Shown here piece by piece: positions 5,436-20,809 of a stretch of 20,809 bases of DNA (position 1 is the stretch's first letter; every line of letters begins with the position of its first letter). Where the stretch lies: the IMG/VR virus record IMGVR_UViG_3300035661_002661, positions 1 through 20,809 of that record; one strand, given 5' to 3'. The notes under the pieces are model-generated. The model did not search any database, had not been told where the DNA came from, and worked only from the letters and a program-made list of their open reading frames with translations. Source of the DNA: a virus. Position numbers and translations under genes: made by a program.

Positions 5436-5461
5436 TTTAGTCCTTTATTTCTTGATTTCGG

Positions 5462-5483
5462 ATTGTACCACAAAGACCCTTAA
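5462..5483 (-). promoter_or_regulatory. Phage early/middle promoter P2
   Basis: Minus-strand TTAAG-N5-TTGTGGTACAAT at the fixed spacing. The further-upstream AAGTGTCTT block seen in P1, P4, P5 and P7 is replaced by AAGTCAAAA. The predicted start is near 5455, about 20 bases before the 79-aa gene's ATG at 5435. Confidence 0.78.
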
Positions 5484-5500
5484 TTTTGACTTAACTTTTT

Positions 5501-8390: not shown

Positions 8391-8415
8391 AACATTCCTT
8401 ATTTTTTAATATCGG

Positions 8416-8437
8416 ATTATACCACAACTTCTCTTAA
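8416..8437 (-). promoter_or_regulatory. Phage early/middle promoter P3
   Basis: Minus-strand TTAAG-N5-TTGTGGTATAAT; it carries TTAAGAG rather than TTAAGGG and is the weakest match to the distal block. The predicted start is near 8409, about 20 bases before the gp52 ATG at 8390, implying that gp52 and uvsW are transcribed from here. Confidence 0.75.
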
Positions 8438-8496
8438 TCTCTACTGAATTTCTTAGCAATTCTGTTATTAATTAATTTATAGTGTTTATATTGGTT

Positions 8497-10399: not shown

Positions 10400-10424
10400 C
10401 AATATCCTTCATTTTTAATACCGG

Positions 10425-10446
10425 ATTGTACCACAAAACCCCTTAA
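10425..10446 (-). promoter_or_regulatory. Phage early/middle promoter P4
   Basis: Minus-strand TTAAG-N5-TTGTGGTACAAT, with the distal block AAGTGTCTC extending to 10455. The predicted start is near 10418, about 20 bases before the topoisomerase large-subunit ATG. Confidence 0.8.
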
Positions 10447-10509
10447 GAGACACTTTAACTTTCTAGGTATATATTTAGTTTAATAATATAACTATCTGGT
10501 ATAATTTTA

Positions 10510-10597: not shown

Positions 10598-10957
10598 TCA
10601 TAACTCTGTTAATTGTTCTGGGAGAGTGCCATCAAATCTATAACAATATTTCCAATGACAACCATCAGTAGATCTGAACATACCATCAAATACTTTTTCA
10701 AATTTTGATAACATACAACGATTAGCATTTTCGTTACAAAATAAACACCATTCGTTTTCGGTTGGTTCCCATACCTCTACGAGGTTATACCTGTGGTTAG
10801 TAGAACAATAACCAGTTTCAGAAAAATAGCGAATAGTACCATCCTCACACATACCAACAACCTTGTAGGTATAATGGGTACAATCATTTCTGTCCATACA
10901 CAAAATTCTGATTGGTTTTCCATCACTCGTATATTTTTTATCCATTGATACAGTCAT
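10598..10957 (-). CDS. Paralogue family A, member 1 (hypothetical phage protein)
   Basis: A 119-aa protein, one of three full-length paralogues here (others at 18948-19313 and 19310-19678). The shared architecture is an N-terminal KKYTS-G-RIL strand (MTVSMDKKYTSDGKPIRILC), DG-I-YF in the middle, NLVEVWEP, EWCLFCNE, a KF---FDGMF segment and a C-terminal W--C-RFDGTLPE. Aromatics and cysteines at fixed sites suggest a compact beta-rich fold, possibly with structural cysteines. Similar small proteins are common in phage accessory regions and have no established role. Its ATG overlaps the stop of the upstream 49-aa membrane protein gene. SD GGGAAGAAAAAG is present. Confidence 0.85.
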   Translation of the reverse strand: MTVSMDKKYTSDGKPIRILCMDRNDCTHYTYKVVGMCEDGTIRYFSETGYCSTNHRYNLVEVWEPTENEWCLFCNENANRCMLSKFEKVFDGMFRSTDGCHWKYCYRFDGTLPEQLTEL

Positions 10958-13692: not shown

Positions 13693-13752
13693 TTTCTATC
13701 CTTCTTTTCTTTATCCCGGATTGTACCACAAAGTCCCTTAAAAGACACTTGT
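13686..13752. repeat. 67-bp perfect direct repeat, copy 1
   Basis: Identical to 20502-20568. It contains the start codon, SD, leader and complete promoter P5 of a minus-strand operon. The two copies have identical orientation and are 6,816 bp apart. Confidence 0.95.
13720..13741 (-). promoter_or_regulatory. Phage early/middle promoter P5
   Basis: Minus-strand TTAAG-N5-TTGTGGTACAAT, with the distal AAGTGTCTT block extending to 13750. It drives accessory operon 1. The predicted start is near 13713, about 20 bases before the 91-aa gene's ATG. Confidence 0.82.
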
Positions 13753-17054: not shown

Positions 17055-17071
17055 ATTTGTCCTTTAAATAT

Positions 17072-17093
17072 ATTATACCACAAGTATCCTTAA
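17072..17093 (-). promoter_or_regulatory. Phage early/middle promoter P6
   Basis: Minus-strand TTAAG-N5-TTGTGGTATAAT, starting 18 bases before the gp41 ATG and giving an unusually short predicted leader of about 10 bases. The distal block is TAAGGGTAT instead of AAGTGTCTT. Confidence 0.75.
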
Positions 17094-17111
17094 AATACCC
17101 TTAAGAGATTA

Positions 17112-18050
17112 TCAAAGAGTATTTAAAGTATTGTATATCTTTTTAGCATAATCAATAATAGTATTATAATCTTTATCTCCAGTATGTGTAAATGATAAAA
17201 TATGATGATGACCACCAATATTACTAATTAACTCAGTATTAATAGCACTTATAACCTGCCTAGTAATATCTTTACAATCTTCTTCTGTTACACTTTTGTT
17301 TATTTTTAGTAATATCTTACCAAATGAAAATACTTGTACTATGAATTTAGTTTTATATTTTAATTGTGTCCAATTTTGGTGTCTATCACCAAAAATCATT
17401 GTTATTGTATCACTACTAACAACAAGTTTTTTGGTTTCTAGTTCTTTAAAATATAAAGCAACGTCCTTCTTGATAGCATTATAATCTTTATCGTGACGTT
17501 CAGTAAATTCATATCTATATAAAAACTGAGAATGAAATGATTTAATGCCATAATTCCAAAATAGTGAATTATATTTCATACCATCACTAAAGTACATAGA
17601 GTCAGTATTCCACATATCAAAAGCATTGACGGCATCAATAAACTTATTATCTATAGAATGATAGTCAGCAAGTATTTTAACAGATGCATATTTACTAGAA
17701 TATAAAACTAATAAATTATCTAATACTGATATGCTAGTTTTTGTAGATGGAACATTTAAAGTATTCTCAGTTTCAAAATGGTGGTCAGCCCATACAAATT
17801 TAGTGTTTGGAAAGGTGTTACATAAGTAGATAAGATAAGATAAAGTTTCTTCTGTCAATACTAAATCAGAAATAACGATATATGTATACTTATGGAAGTA
17901 TTTCTTACAGTTTTTTAGTGTTTCTAATACTTCAGAATAATTTACTGATATACTTTCACTATCTTTGTGTACATGTTTAAGTAAAATGTGACATGATGTT
18001 CCATCTAAATCGTTATGAGCAATAGATAATACTGATAACCTTTTGTTCAT
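17112..18050 (-). CDS. DHH-family phosphoesterase
   Basis: A 312-aa protein with the DHH/DHHA1 layout: HNDLDG at 12-17 (motif I), VISDL at 59-63 (motif II), DHH at 89-91 in VWADHHFE (motif III) and a C-terminal IGGHHHILSF corresponding to the GGH substrate motif. Members hydrolyse phosphodiesters in ssDNA (RecJ), short oligoribonucleotides or cyclic dinucleotides (NrnA/GdpP types). Size and lack of other domains fit the NrnA-like group best. For a phage, nucleotide salvage from RNA fragments or removal of defence second messengers are both possible. ATG 18050 is chosen for its SD (AAAAGGA); an upstream GTG at 18071 would overlap the preceding gene. Confidence 0.88.
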   Translation of the reverse strand: MNKRLSVLSIAHNDLDGTSCHILLKHVHKDSESISVNYSEVLETLKNCKKYFHKYTYIVISDLVLTEETLSYLIYLCNTFPNTKFVWADHHFETENTLNVPSTKTSISVLDNLLVLYSSKYASVKILADYHSIDNKFIDAVNAFDMWNTDSMYFSDGMKYNSLFWNYGIKSFHSQFLYRYEFTERHDKDYNAIKKDVALYFKELETKKLVVSSDTITMIFGDRHQNWTQLKYKTKFIVQVFSFGKILLKINKSVTEEDCKDITRQVISAINTELISNIGGHHHILSFTHTGDKDYNTIIDYAKKIYNTLNTL

Positions 18051-18060
18051 TATTTTCCTT

Positions 18061-18411
18061 TTATATTTCACAGTTATTTATAAAGTTAATCTTTTTAAAA
18101 TTATCATTTAATGATATTCCAATTAACTCTGGAATGGAATTAATAAATTCAGATAAGTTAATAGTACAATCAAATACTACTATATCAAAAGATTTTATGT
18201 CATTAACGTTGTTGGTCACAAAAAGAGGACTAGTATATCTAAAGTATAGTTCCATACAAGCAACTAATAAATTATCTTTTTTAAAATCTTCCATAACTTG
18301 CTGTAAACAATTATATACTCTAAATGAAGTAAGGTCTTTACTATAATATATTACCCTTGGTGGTTCAAAAATAGGCACTATTTGGGTGTTATCAATAGAT
18401 TTTAGGTACAT
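18061..18411 (-). CDS. Hypothetical protein (116 aa)
   Basis: A 116-aa protein starting MYLKSIDNTQIVPIFEPPRV. Alternating strands and helices (VIYYSKDLTSFRVYNCLQQVMEDFKK; FDIVVFDCTINLSEFI) suggest a small alpha/beta fold. Strong SD (AGGAG, five bases from the ATG). It is followed within 11 bases by the DHH gene and is probably cotranscribed with it. No family recognised, no membrane segment. Confidence 0.75.
   Translation of the reverse strand: MYLKSIDNTQIVPIFEPPRVIYYSKDLTSFRVYNCLQQVMEDFKKDNLLVACMELYFRYTSPLFVTNNVNDIKSFDIVVFDCTINLSEFINSIPELIGISLNDNFKKINFINNCEI
18075..18082 (-). promoter_or_regulatory. T4-type late promoter (TATAAATA) before DHH gene
   Basis: Exact TATAAATA on the minus strand, 25 bases before ATG 18050 and inside the 3' end of the preceding gene. 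It matches the box used by the two plus-strand genes. If active, the DHH enzyme would also be made late. Confidence 0.45.
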
Positions 18412-18947: not shown

Positions 18948-19313
18948 TTATCCTTTTATGTCTTTTAAATATTCTGGCAACGTGCCATCAAATTTATGAC
19001 AGTGATTCCAAATTGTATTACATATGCTTTGGAATTTTCCATCATTAGTCATTGCATTAAATTGATCTAAAACGGTTCGGTGTGGTTTTAGTTCATTACA
19101 GAACAAACACCATTCACCTTTTTGTGGTTCCCACAACTCTACGAGATTATATATAGGATGAGCTGGACTTTTTCCATCTTCTGTAAAATAAAGTATAGCT
19201 CCATCATCACGCATTCCAATAACTTTATATTCAATGGCATGAGGTCTATCTGTACATAATATATGAATTGATTCACCATTACTTATATATTTCTTTCCCA
19301 TTTCTATTTTCAT
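18948..19313 (-). CDS. Paralogue family A, member 2
   Basis: A 121-aa member of the family described at 10598-10957, in the order MKIEMGKKYISNG, IHILCTD, DDGAILYFTEDG, NLVELWEP, GEWCLFCNE, a -VLDQFNAM- segment, then WNHCHKFDGTLPEYL. It lies next to member 3, with ATG and TGA overlapping (ATGA), so this pair probably arose by tandem duplication. The conserved cysteine after EW and the WxxC near the C-terminus are kept. Function unknown. Confidence 0.85.
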   Translation of the reverse strand: MKIEMGKKYISNGESIHILCTDRPHAIEYKVIGMRDDGAILYFTEDGKSPAHPIYNLVELWEPQKGEWCLFCNELKPHRTVLDQFNAMTNDGKFQSICNTIWNHCHKFDGTLPEYLKDIKG

Positions 19314-19678
19314 TTTACATCTTCTCTCGTATGTTCTGGCAAAGTACCATCAAATTTAGCACAATATTTCCATGCGTTGTAGTTGTCACTCTTAAATGTT
19401 CCACATTCAGTCATTCCTACAAATTTATCTAAAACTGCCGTTTTATACTTCTCATTATCCCAGAACAAGCACCATTCTCCACGTTGTGGTTCCCAAACTT
19501 CTACTAAATCCCACATTTCTTGTTTATCATCAGCGTTTATTCTATTTTCTGTAAAATATTTTACAGAACTATCTTCATACATTACAACTACTGGATAATC
19601 TGAATCATACCCATCTACACATAAAATTCTTACCTTACACCTATTAGATGTATATTTCTTGTTCATTTCTATTTTCAT
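19310..19678 (-). CDS. Paralogue family A, member 3
   Basis: A 122-aa family member starting MKIEMNKKYTSNRCKVRILC. I use ATG 19678, which has SD AAGGA six bases upstream; the longer frame would need a TTG at 19684 inside that SD spacer. The conserved blocks are present (KYFTEN, DLVEVWEPQRGEWCLFW, TAVLDKFVGMTECGTFKS, AWKYCAKFDGTLPEH). Here the Cys of CLFC is CLFW. It directly follows the -1-frame extension of the gene at 19690-20015. Confidence 0.85.
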   Translation of the reverse strand: MKIEMNKKYTSNRCKVRILCVDGYDSDYPVVVMYEDSSVKYFTENRINADDKQEMWDLVEVWEPQRGEWCLFWDNEKYKTAVLDKFVGMTECGTFKSDNYNAWKYCAKFDGTLPEHTREDVK

Positions 19679-19689
19679 AATCAATCCTT

Positions 19690-20015
19690 TTAATACTTTT
19701 CTATATTCACTTCATTTTGTTCATTGATTCTACAGCGAATTTCATTAGTTCTTCTGCATTCTGAATGAGAGTGTTCAGCTGTTAAAAGAAAATTATGAAA
19801 GTGCTCAACATTATTAAGAGTTGATTTCCCTCGAAGAGTTTGAACTGGTTGTAGTTTTTTTCAATAAGTTGAGTAAAAATATCTTTACAAATCTTTATCC
19901 ACAAATCACCTTCTGGTGTATTTTTATAACTTTCAGGAAGTTTAATTCTTAATTTTTCATCAGAAGTTATCGTAATTTTAAATTTATTTCCACTAGAATC
20001 AATTTCAATATTCAT
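19690..20015 (-). CDS. Hypothetical protein spanning a -1 frameshift site (108 aa if joined)
   Basis: The zero frame gives 77 aa (19782-20015), MNIEIDSSGNKFKITITSDE at the start. After residue 54 its sequence turns hydrophobic and unstructured-looking (LLIMLSTFIIFF). At GA-A-AAA-AAC (heptamer 19854-19860) a -1 shift opens a 54-codon frame running to a TAA at 19690: LQPVQTLRGKSTLNNVEHFH, then NFLLTAEHSHSECRRTNEIR and a polar end. This extension reads like real protein and fills the gap to the next gene exactly. Either programmed frameshifting makes a 108-aa product, or an A-run indel has broken the gene. Start is coupled to the upstream gene (ATGA). Confidence 0.65.
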
Positions 20016-20167: not shown

Positions 20168-20347
20168 TTAAGATTTATTAAAGTGTTTATGTTGTTTAAT
20201 TGTTTTATTGCCATTTTGTGGGTCAAGTATAGAATTACTAACTCCTTGCCCAGAGTGTGCCTCTGCTTTTAAGCTACCTAAAATACTTAAAGTAGGTACA
20301 ACGTAGGCTACTTTTTTAATAAACTCTCTTCTATTTGTTTTACTCAT
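20168..20347 (-). CDS. Small protein with Tat-type signal peptide (59 aa)
   Basis: A 59-aa protein whose N-terminus MSKTNRREFIKKVAYVVPTL carries the twin-arginine consensus (RRxFIKK). A moderately hydrophobic stretch follows (VAYVVPTLSILGSL) and a likely signal peptidase site after KAEA. The mature part would be only about 29 residues (HSGQGVSNSILDPQNGNKTI and a basic end). SD AAAGGAG is six bases before the ATG. Bacteria encode similar miniature RRxFLKK...AYVxPT proteins. The Tat system exports folded proteins, so such a short mature region is curious. The product may act in the periplasm or occupy the host Tat machinery; both are inference. Confidence 0.75.
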   Translation of the reverse strand: MSKTNRREFIKKVAYVVPTLSILGSLKAEAHSGQGVSNSILDPQNGNKTIKQHKHFNKS

Positions 20348-20508: not shown

Positions 20509-20568
20509 TTTCTATCCTTCTTTTCTTTATCCCGGATTGTACCACAAAGTCCCTTAAAAGACACTTGT
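20502..20568. repeat. 67-bp perfect direct repeat, copy 2
   Basis: Identical to 13686-13752, covering promoter P7, leader, SD and start codon. The boundaries end abruptly on both sides (A/T difference at the gene side, T/G at the upstream side). Confidence 0.95.
20536..20557 (-). promoter_or_regulatory. Phage early/middle promoter P7
   Basis: Same sequence as P5, with the distal AAGTGTCTT block to 20566. It drives accessory operon 2 starting with micropeptide B2; the predicted start is near 20529. Confidence 0.82.
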
Positions 20569-20606: not shown

Positions 20607-20809
20607 TTATTGTTTTCCTATAATTTTGTCAAATACTGTTAAATTCGGAGAATATCTCGTATAATCATAAATATCTGTCTTTCCTGTTCTATAATCATAT
20701 CTTGAACCATTAAAATTTACCAAACATTCTACTGCTAATCCTACACCTGCAGAACGTGACTGACCTGCTTTACAATGAATAAGAAATTTTTTATCTTTAT
20801 TCTTTTTAA
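20607..20809 (-). CDS. CX5R protein phosphatase (tyrosine/dual-specificity type), C-terminal part
   Basis: The last 66 residues of a protein entering from the right edge. FLIHCKAGQSRSAGVGLAVE contains the cysteine-phosphatase loop C-K-A-G-Q-S-R-S, with nucleophile Cys and phosphate-binding Arg intact, followed by the usual helix. The tail (YDYRTGKTDIYDYTRYSPNL) is tyrosine-rich and polar. The family removes phosphate from Tyr, Ser/Thr or other phospho-substrates, and similar genes occur in large phages. Substrate unknown. The gene ends just before the 9-bp repeat and promoter P7, so it belongs to a separate upstream unit. Confidence 0.85.
   Translation of the reverse strand, partial: KKNKDKKFLIHCKAGQSRSAGVGLAVECLVNFNGSRYDYRTGKTDIYDYTRYSPNLTVFDKIIGKQ

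Follow-up and report, generated by a model that had tools for sequence, protein, structure and literature searches.

A frame break at an A7 run in a small orphan gene of a Eucampyvirinae-like phage is probably an ordinary length change rather than a programmed frameshift

The window, i.e., the whole 20.8-kb virus record analyzed here, derives from an uncultured T4-like phage related to Campylobacter phages (Eucampyvirinae-like). Replication genes in the window, including those for the DnaB-like helicase gp41 and the large subunit of topoisomerase II, share 37 to 41% identity with their counterparts in Campylobacter phages of the Eucampyvirinae, and gp41 is nearer to some environmental contigs (43 to 45% identity). 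The phage is AT-rich, and the minus strand holds nearly all genes of the window. Repeat and alignment analyses recovered seven minus-strand copies of a promoter-like element, TTAAGGGN(3)TTGTGGTAYAAT, at 1926 to 1970, 5448 to 5492, 8402 to 8446, 10411 to 10455, 13706 to 13750, 17058 to 17102, and 20522 to 20566. The copies lie mostly just upstream of gene starts, e.g., those of gp39, gp52, and gp41, and the element probably represents a promoter that is specific to the phage and has an extended -10 box. The copy at 20522 to 20566 lies upstream of a cluster of small accessory genes near the replication genes, and the gene considered here, whose reading frame appears broken, belongs to this cluster.

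Other minus-strand products of the window include three paralogous proteins of 119 to 124 aa (10598 to 10957, 18948 to 19313, and 19310 to 19684), which are 45 to 50% identical, share the motifs WEP..(G)EWCLF and FDGTLPE, and have no family match; the third has no homologue in related records. A 319-aa protein (17112 to 18071) carries motifs resembling those of DHH-type phosphoesterases (HNDLDG, ADHHF, and GGHHH) without a Pfam match and is common to the environmental relatives L031 to L040 at 25 to 28% identity. The gene at 20607 to 20807 is cut by the window end; its product corresponds to the C terminus of a protein resembling dual-specificity phosphatases, with the motif HCKAGQSRS (Pfam DSPc E value of 7e-5, below the curated cutoff). 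A 59-aa protein (20168 to 20347) starts with MSKTNRREFIKKVAYVVPTLSILGSLKAEA, which by eye resembles a twin-arginine-type signal peptide and would be unusual for a phage.

The zero-frame open reading frame (ORF) at the locus runs from 20015 to 19782 on the minus strand, encodes 77 aa, shares an ATGA overlap with the gene upstream, and is preceded by a good Shine-Dalgarno (SD) sequence. Its codons 52 to 54 are GAA AAA AAC, which confirms the in-phase A-AAA-AAC reported in a preliminary description of this DNA: an X-XXY-YYZ heptamer in zero-frame phase at 19854 to 19860, within an A7 run at 19861 to 19855. The genes scanned contain just one other coding run of at least seven. A -1-frame TGA directly adjoins the A run, and the -1 frame (19690 to 19860, minus strand) therefore opens exactly at the heptamer. 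It stays open for 56 codons (19860 to 19693), slightly longer than the 54 originally counted, and ends, as had been described, just before the SD of the next gene (AAAAGG), with its TAA at 19692 to 19690. An independent gene in the -1 frame is ruled out, as this frame contains no ATG, GTG, or TTG. This length exceeds chance expectation: in the genes of the window, only 0.2% of out-of-frame positions are followed by an open frame of 53 codons.

Codon scoring was trained with the remaining genes of the window, and a version using a slightly different training set agreed. The zero frame was coding-like up to the heptamer (codons 1 to 53), while codons 55 to 77 (NYNQFKLFEGNQLLIMLSTFIIFF) look out of frame. 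Over the 23 codons past the site, the score was -7.3 bits in the zero frame, which is lower than in any of 1196 in-frame windows, and +11.4 bits in the -1 frame, which is higher than in any of 193 out-of-frame windows. A single switch fitted best at codons 52 to 56, and the frame switch thus lies at the A run or no more than a few codons away. The protein-like character previously ascribed to the -1 frame holds for its first ~25 to 33 codons, which are clearly coding-like; its last ~20 codons are ambiguous and compete with a coding-like zero frame. Such an abrupt switch of coding frame inside one gene is what is expected of a gene broken by an indel. Codon statistics and operon spacing both back the earlier view that the two halves very probably constitute one gene.

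Homologues were sought with the joined 108-aa form and with zero/-1/zero forms. None was found by tblastn against phages (E values up to 10) or plasmids, by peptide patterns and a degenerate DNA pattern in the viral_contigs collection, in the genome_contigs collection, or in 27 related contig and phage records searched in full. Weak phage matches at E values of 7 to 9 were taken as chance, one of them being antisense to an annotated gene, and three genome_contigs matches were likewise dismissed, since their agreement was largely confined to a single 8-mer, which in L028 is surrounded by stops. Pfam, NCBIfam, and PDB yielded nothing for the joined protein or its variants. PHROG 32272 matched the joined forms only, with an alignment spanning the junction (E values of about 0.003 to 0.006), but this match was not counted because shuffled controls reached an E value of 0.0088; the family was also not found in the related records. 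The environmental contigs with the closest gp41 lack the frame-broken gene. The neighboring 124-aa gene is likewise missing from related records, which suggests that this is an ordinary orphan accessory zone of the phage.

The lack of a supporting homologue for the joined protein, in which LQPVQTLRGKSTLNNVEHFHNFLL is joined to the N-terminal half, and a PHROG match no better than that of shuffled sequences would both suit a reading in which the gene consists of the 77-aa ORF alone and the -1 frame is open by chance. Nevertheless, with the zero-frame tail scoring below every in-frame window and the -1 frame above every out-of-frame window, we regard this reading as very improbable.

The heptamer had been presented as a canonical programmed -1 frameshift site, which would yield a 108-aa fusion beside the 77-aa protein. 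Its in-phase position exactly where the -1 frame opens and the extension of that frame to just before the next SD are in keeping with this proposal. In addition, A-AAA-AAC supports >0.1% shifting in Escherichia coli without stimulators (PMC4066793) and is used by IS1 (PMC12428005), so that low-level shifting is physically possible. With stimulators, the related A-AAA-AAG ranks with the most slippery motifs in E. coli, and some proven frameshift cases have no stimulator (PMC4066793). That the heptamer and the switch coincide does not separate the explanations, however, as a length change in the A run at this codon position leaves an in-phase heptamer automatically. Furthermore, the intact genes of the window contain 43 in-phase X-XXY-YYZ heptamers in 5644 codons, i.e., approximately one per 130 codons, and 13 of their in-phase sites are A-AAA-AAN, including one A-AAA-AAC (17916) and two A-AAA-AAG. 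In a phage this AT-rich, the heptamer alone is weak evidence. No SD-like element was present 6 to 17 nucleotides upstream of the heptamer, and the downstream RNA fold was not unusually stable (z = -0.70). The weak TCAAC/GTTGA stem noted earlier does exist, 29 nucleotides from the heptamer (19824 to 19820 and 19809 to 19805), but is not significant. No homologue was found in which conservation of the site and of both frames could be assessed.

When coding stretches were sought across the region, the zero frame was picked up a second time beyond its stop, suggesting a possible return to this frame. The stretch (19707 to 19781, minus strand) reads QLNTLIQNAEELMKFAVESMNKMK and ends in TGA at 19709 to 19707. 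A zero/-1/zero model scored 70.1 bits versus 59.3 bits for a single shift, a gain of 10.8 bits, the return to the zero frame fitting best near codon 86. None of 28 intact genes gave a comparable gain within its own tail; the largest was 7.2 bits, in a gene overlapping its neighbor, and every larger gain arose where the reading continued beyond the stop, in most cases into the following gene. Arg and Cys abound in the -1 tail (ECRRTNEIRCRINEQNE), while the zero-frame tail has the look of an ordinary helix. Beyond codon 78, the -1 tail nevertheless scores within the normal range of coding windows, and a second frame change downstream of the A run is therefore not certain; the model scores make it likely, with fair support.

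This second change bears directly on the choice of explanation, as a -1 slippery site cannot account for a return to the zero frame, whereas two opposite frame changes within ~100 bases are the pattern of indels or assembly errors. Together with the frequency of such heptamers in intact genes and the lack of a stimulator, it tells against the canonical programmed site originally proposed. Programmed shifting is possible on the evidence of the heptamer itself, with nothing beyond it pointing the same way, and we consider it unlikely that such a shift, lacking any known stimulator, controls the proportion of short to long forms of a small accessory protein in this Eucampyvirinae-like phage. If it did, a small accessory gene would provide an unusual example of phage recoding other than in tail chaperones.

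Phase variation or transcriptional slippage would place the variability in the A run itself, whose length would differ between genomes or transcripts such that a fraction of the population would produce the long form. A homopolymer does lie at the switch point, and slippage on A runs rescues broken frames in bacteria, but selection is seen to act against slippage chiefly at nine As and productive use at eight was described as a special case (PMC1088944), while this run has only seven. The second frame change would also be left unexplained, and such variation appears less likely still than programmed shifting.

We therefore favor, with reasonable confidence, one or two ordinary length changes, by mutation or by sequencing or assembly error, that broke one small orphan gene; homopolymer indel or natural inactivation, mentioned in the preliminary description as the alternative, is the better reading, and the second frame change fits it. 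An ancestral gene of ~100 to 108 codons in the accessory cluster would have lost its frame through the gain or loss of one base within or beside the A7 run, a likely place for such an event given that only one other coding run is as long, and a second length change probably lies ~75 to 100 bases further on. As written, the sequence would be translated into a 77-aa protein whose last 24 residues are out of frame, and the gene is thus probably inactive in its present form. Indels are inferred as the cause, and in this single consensus they could be natural mutations or sequencing or assembly errors alike. Against this reading, the other genes of the window have no frame break, which indicates that the sequence is not generally error prone, and no unbroken homologue, which the indel explanation would predict, was found in the collections searched. 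A survey of frame transitions in prokaryotes attributed singletons without homologues mainly to gene overlaps, sequencing errors, and indels (PMC3711429). An ordinary indel would be of little importance, except as a caution on reading the heptamers of this AT-rich phage.

Among known systems, the lambda gpG/gpGT tail assembly chaperone frameshift resembles the arrangement originally proposed in that a -1 shift would extend the product of a phage gene, but the present gene has no tail gene nearby and lies among small accessory genes close to replication genes. The insA-insB' programmed -1 frameshift of IS1, at A6C, uses the same heptamer. It concerns a transposase, has been proven by experiment, and is conserved in IS1, with a downstream pseudoknot reported, whereas the phage gene does not encode a transposase and has no significant structure downstream. 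The GeneTack singletons, orphan genes with a break caused by an indel or sequencing error (PMC3711429), likewise have a frame transition at a homopolymer and no homologues; the phage gene differs from them in its in-phase slippery heptamer and in its two likely frame changes.
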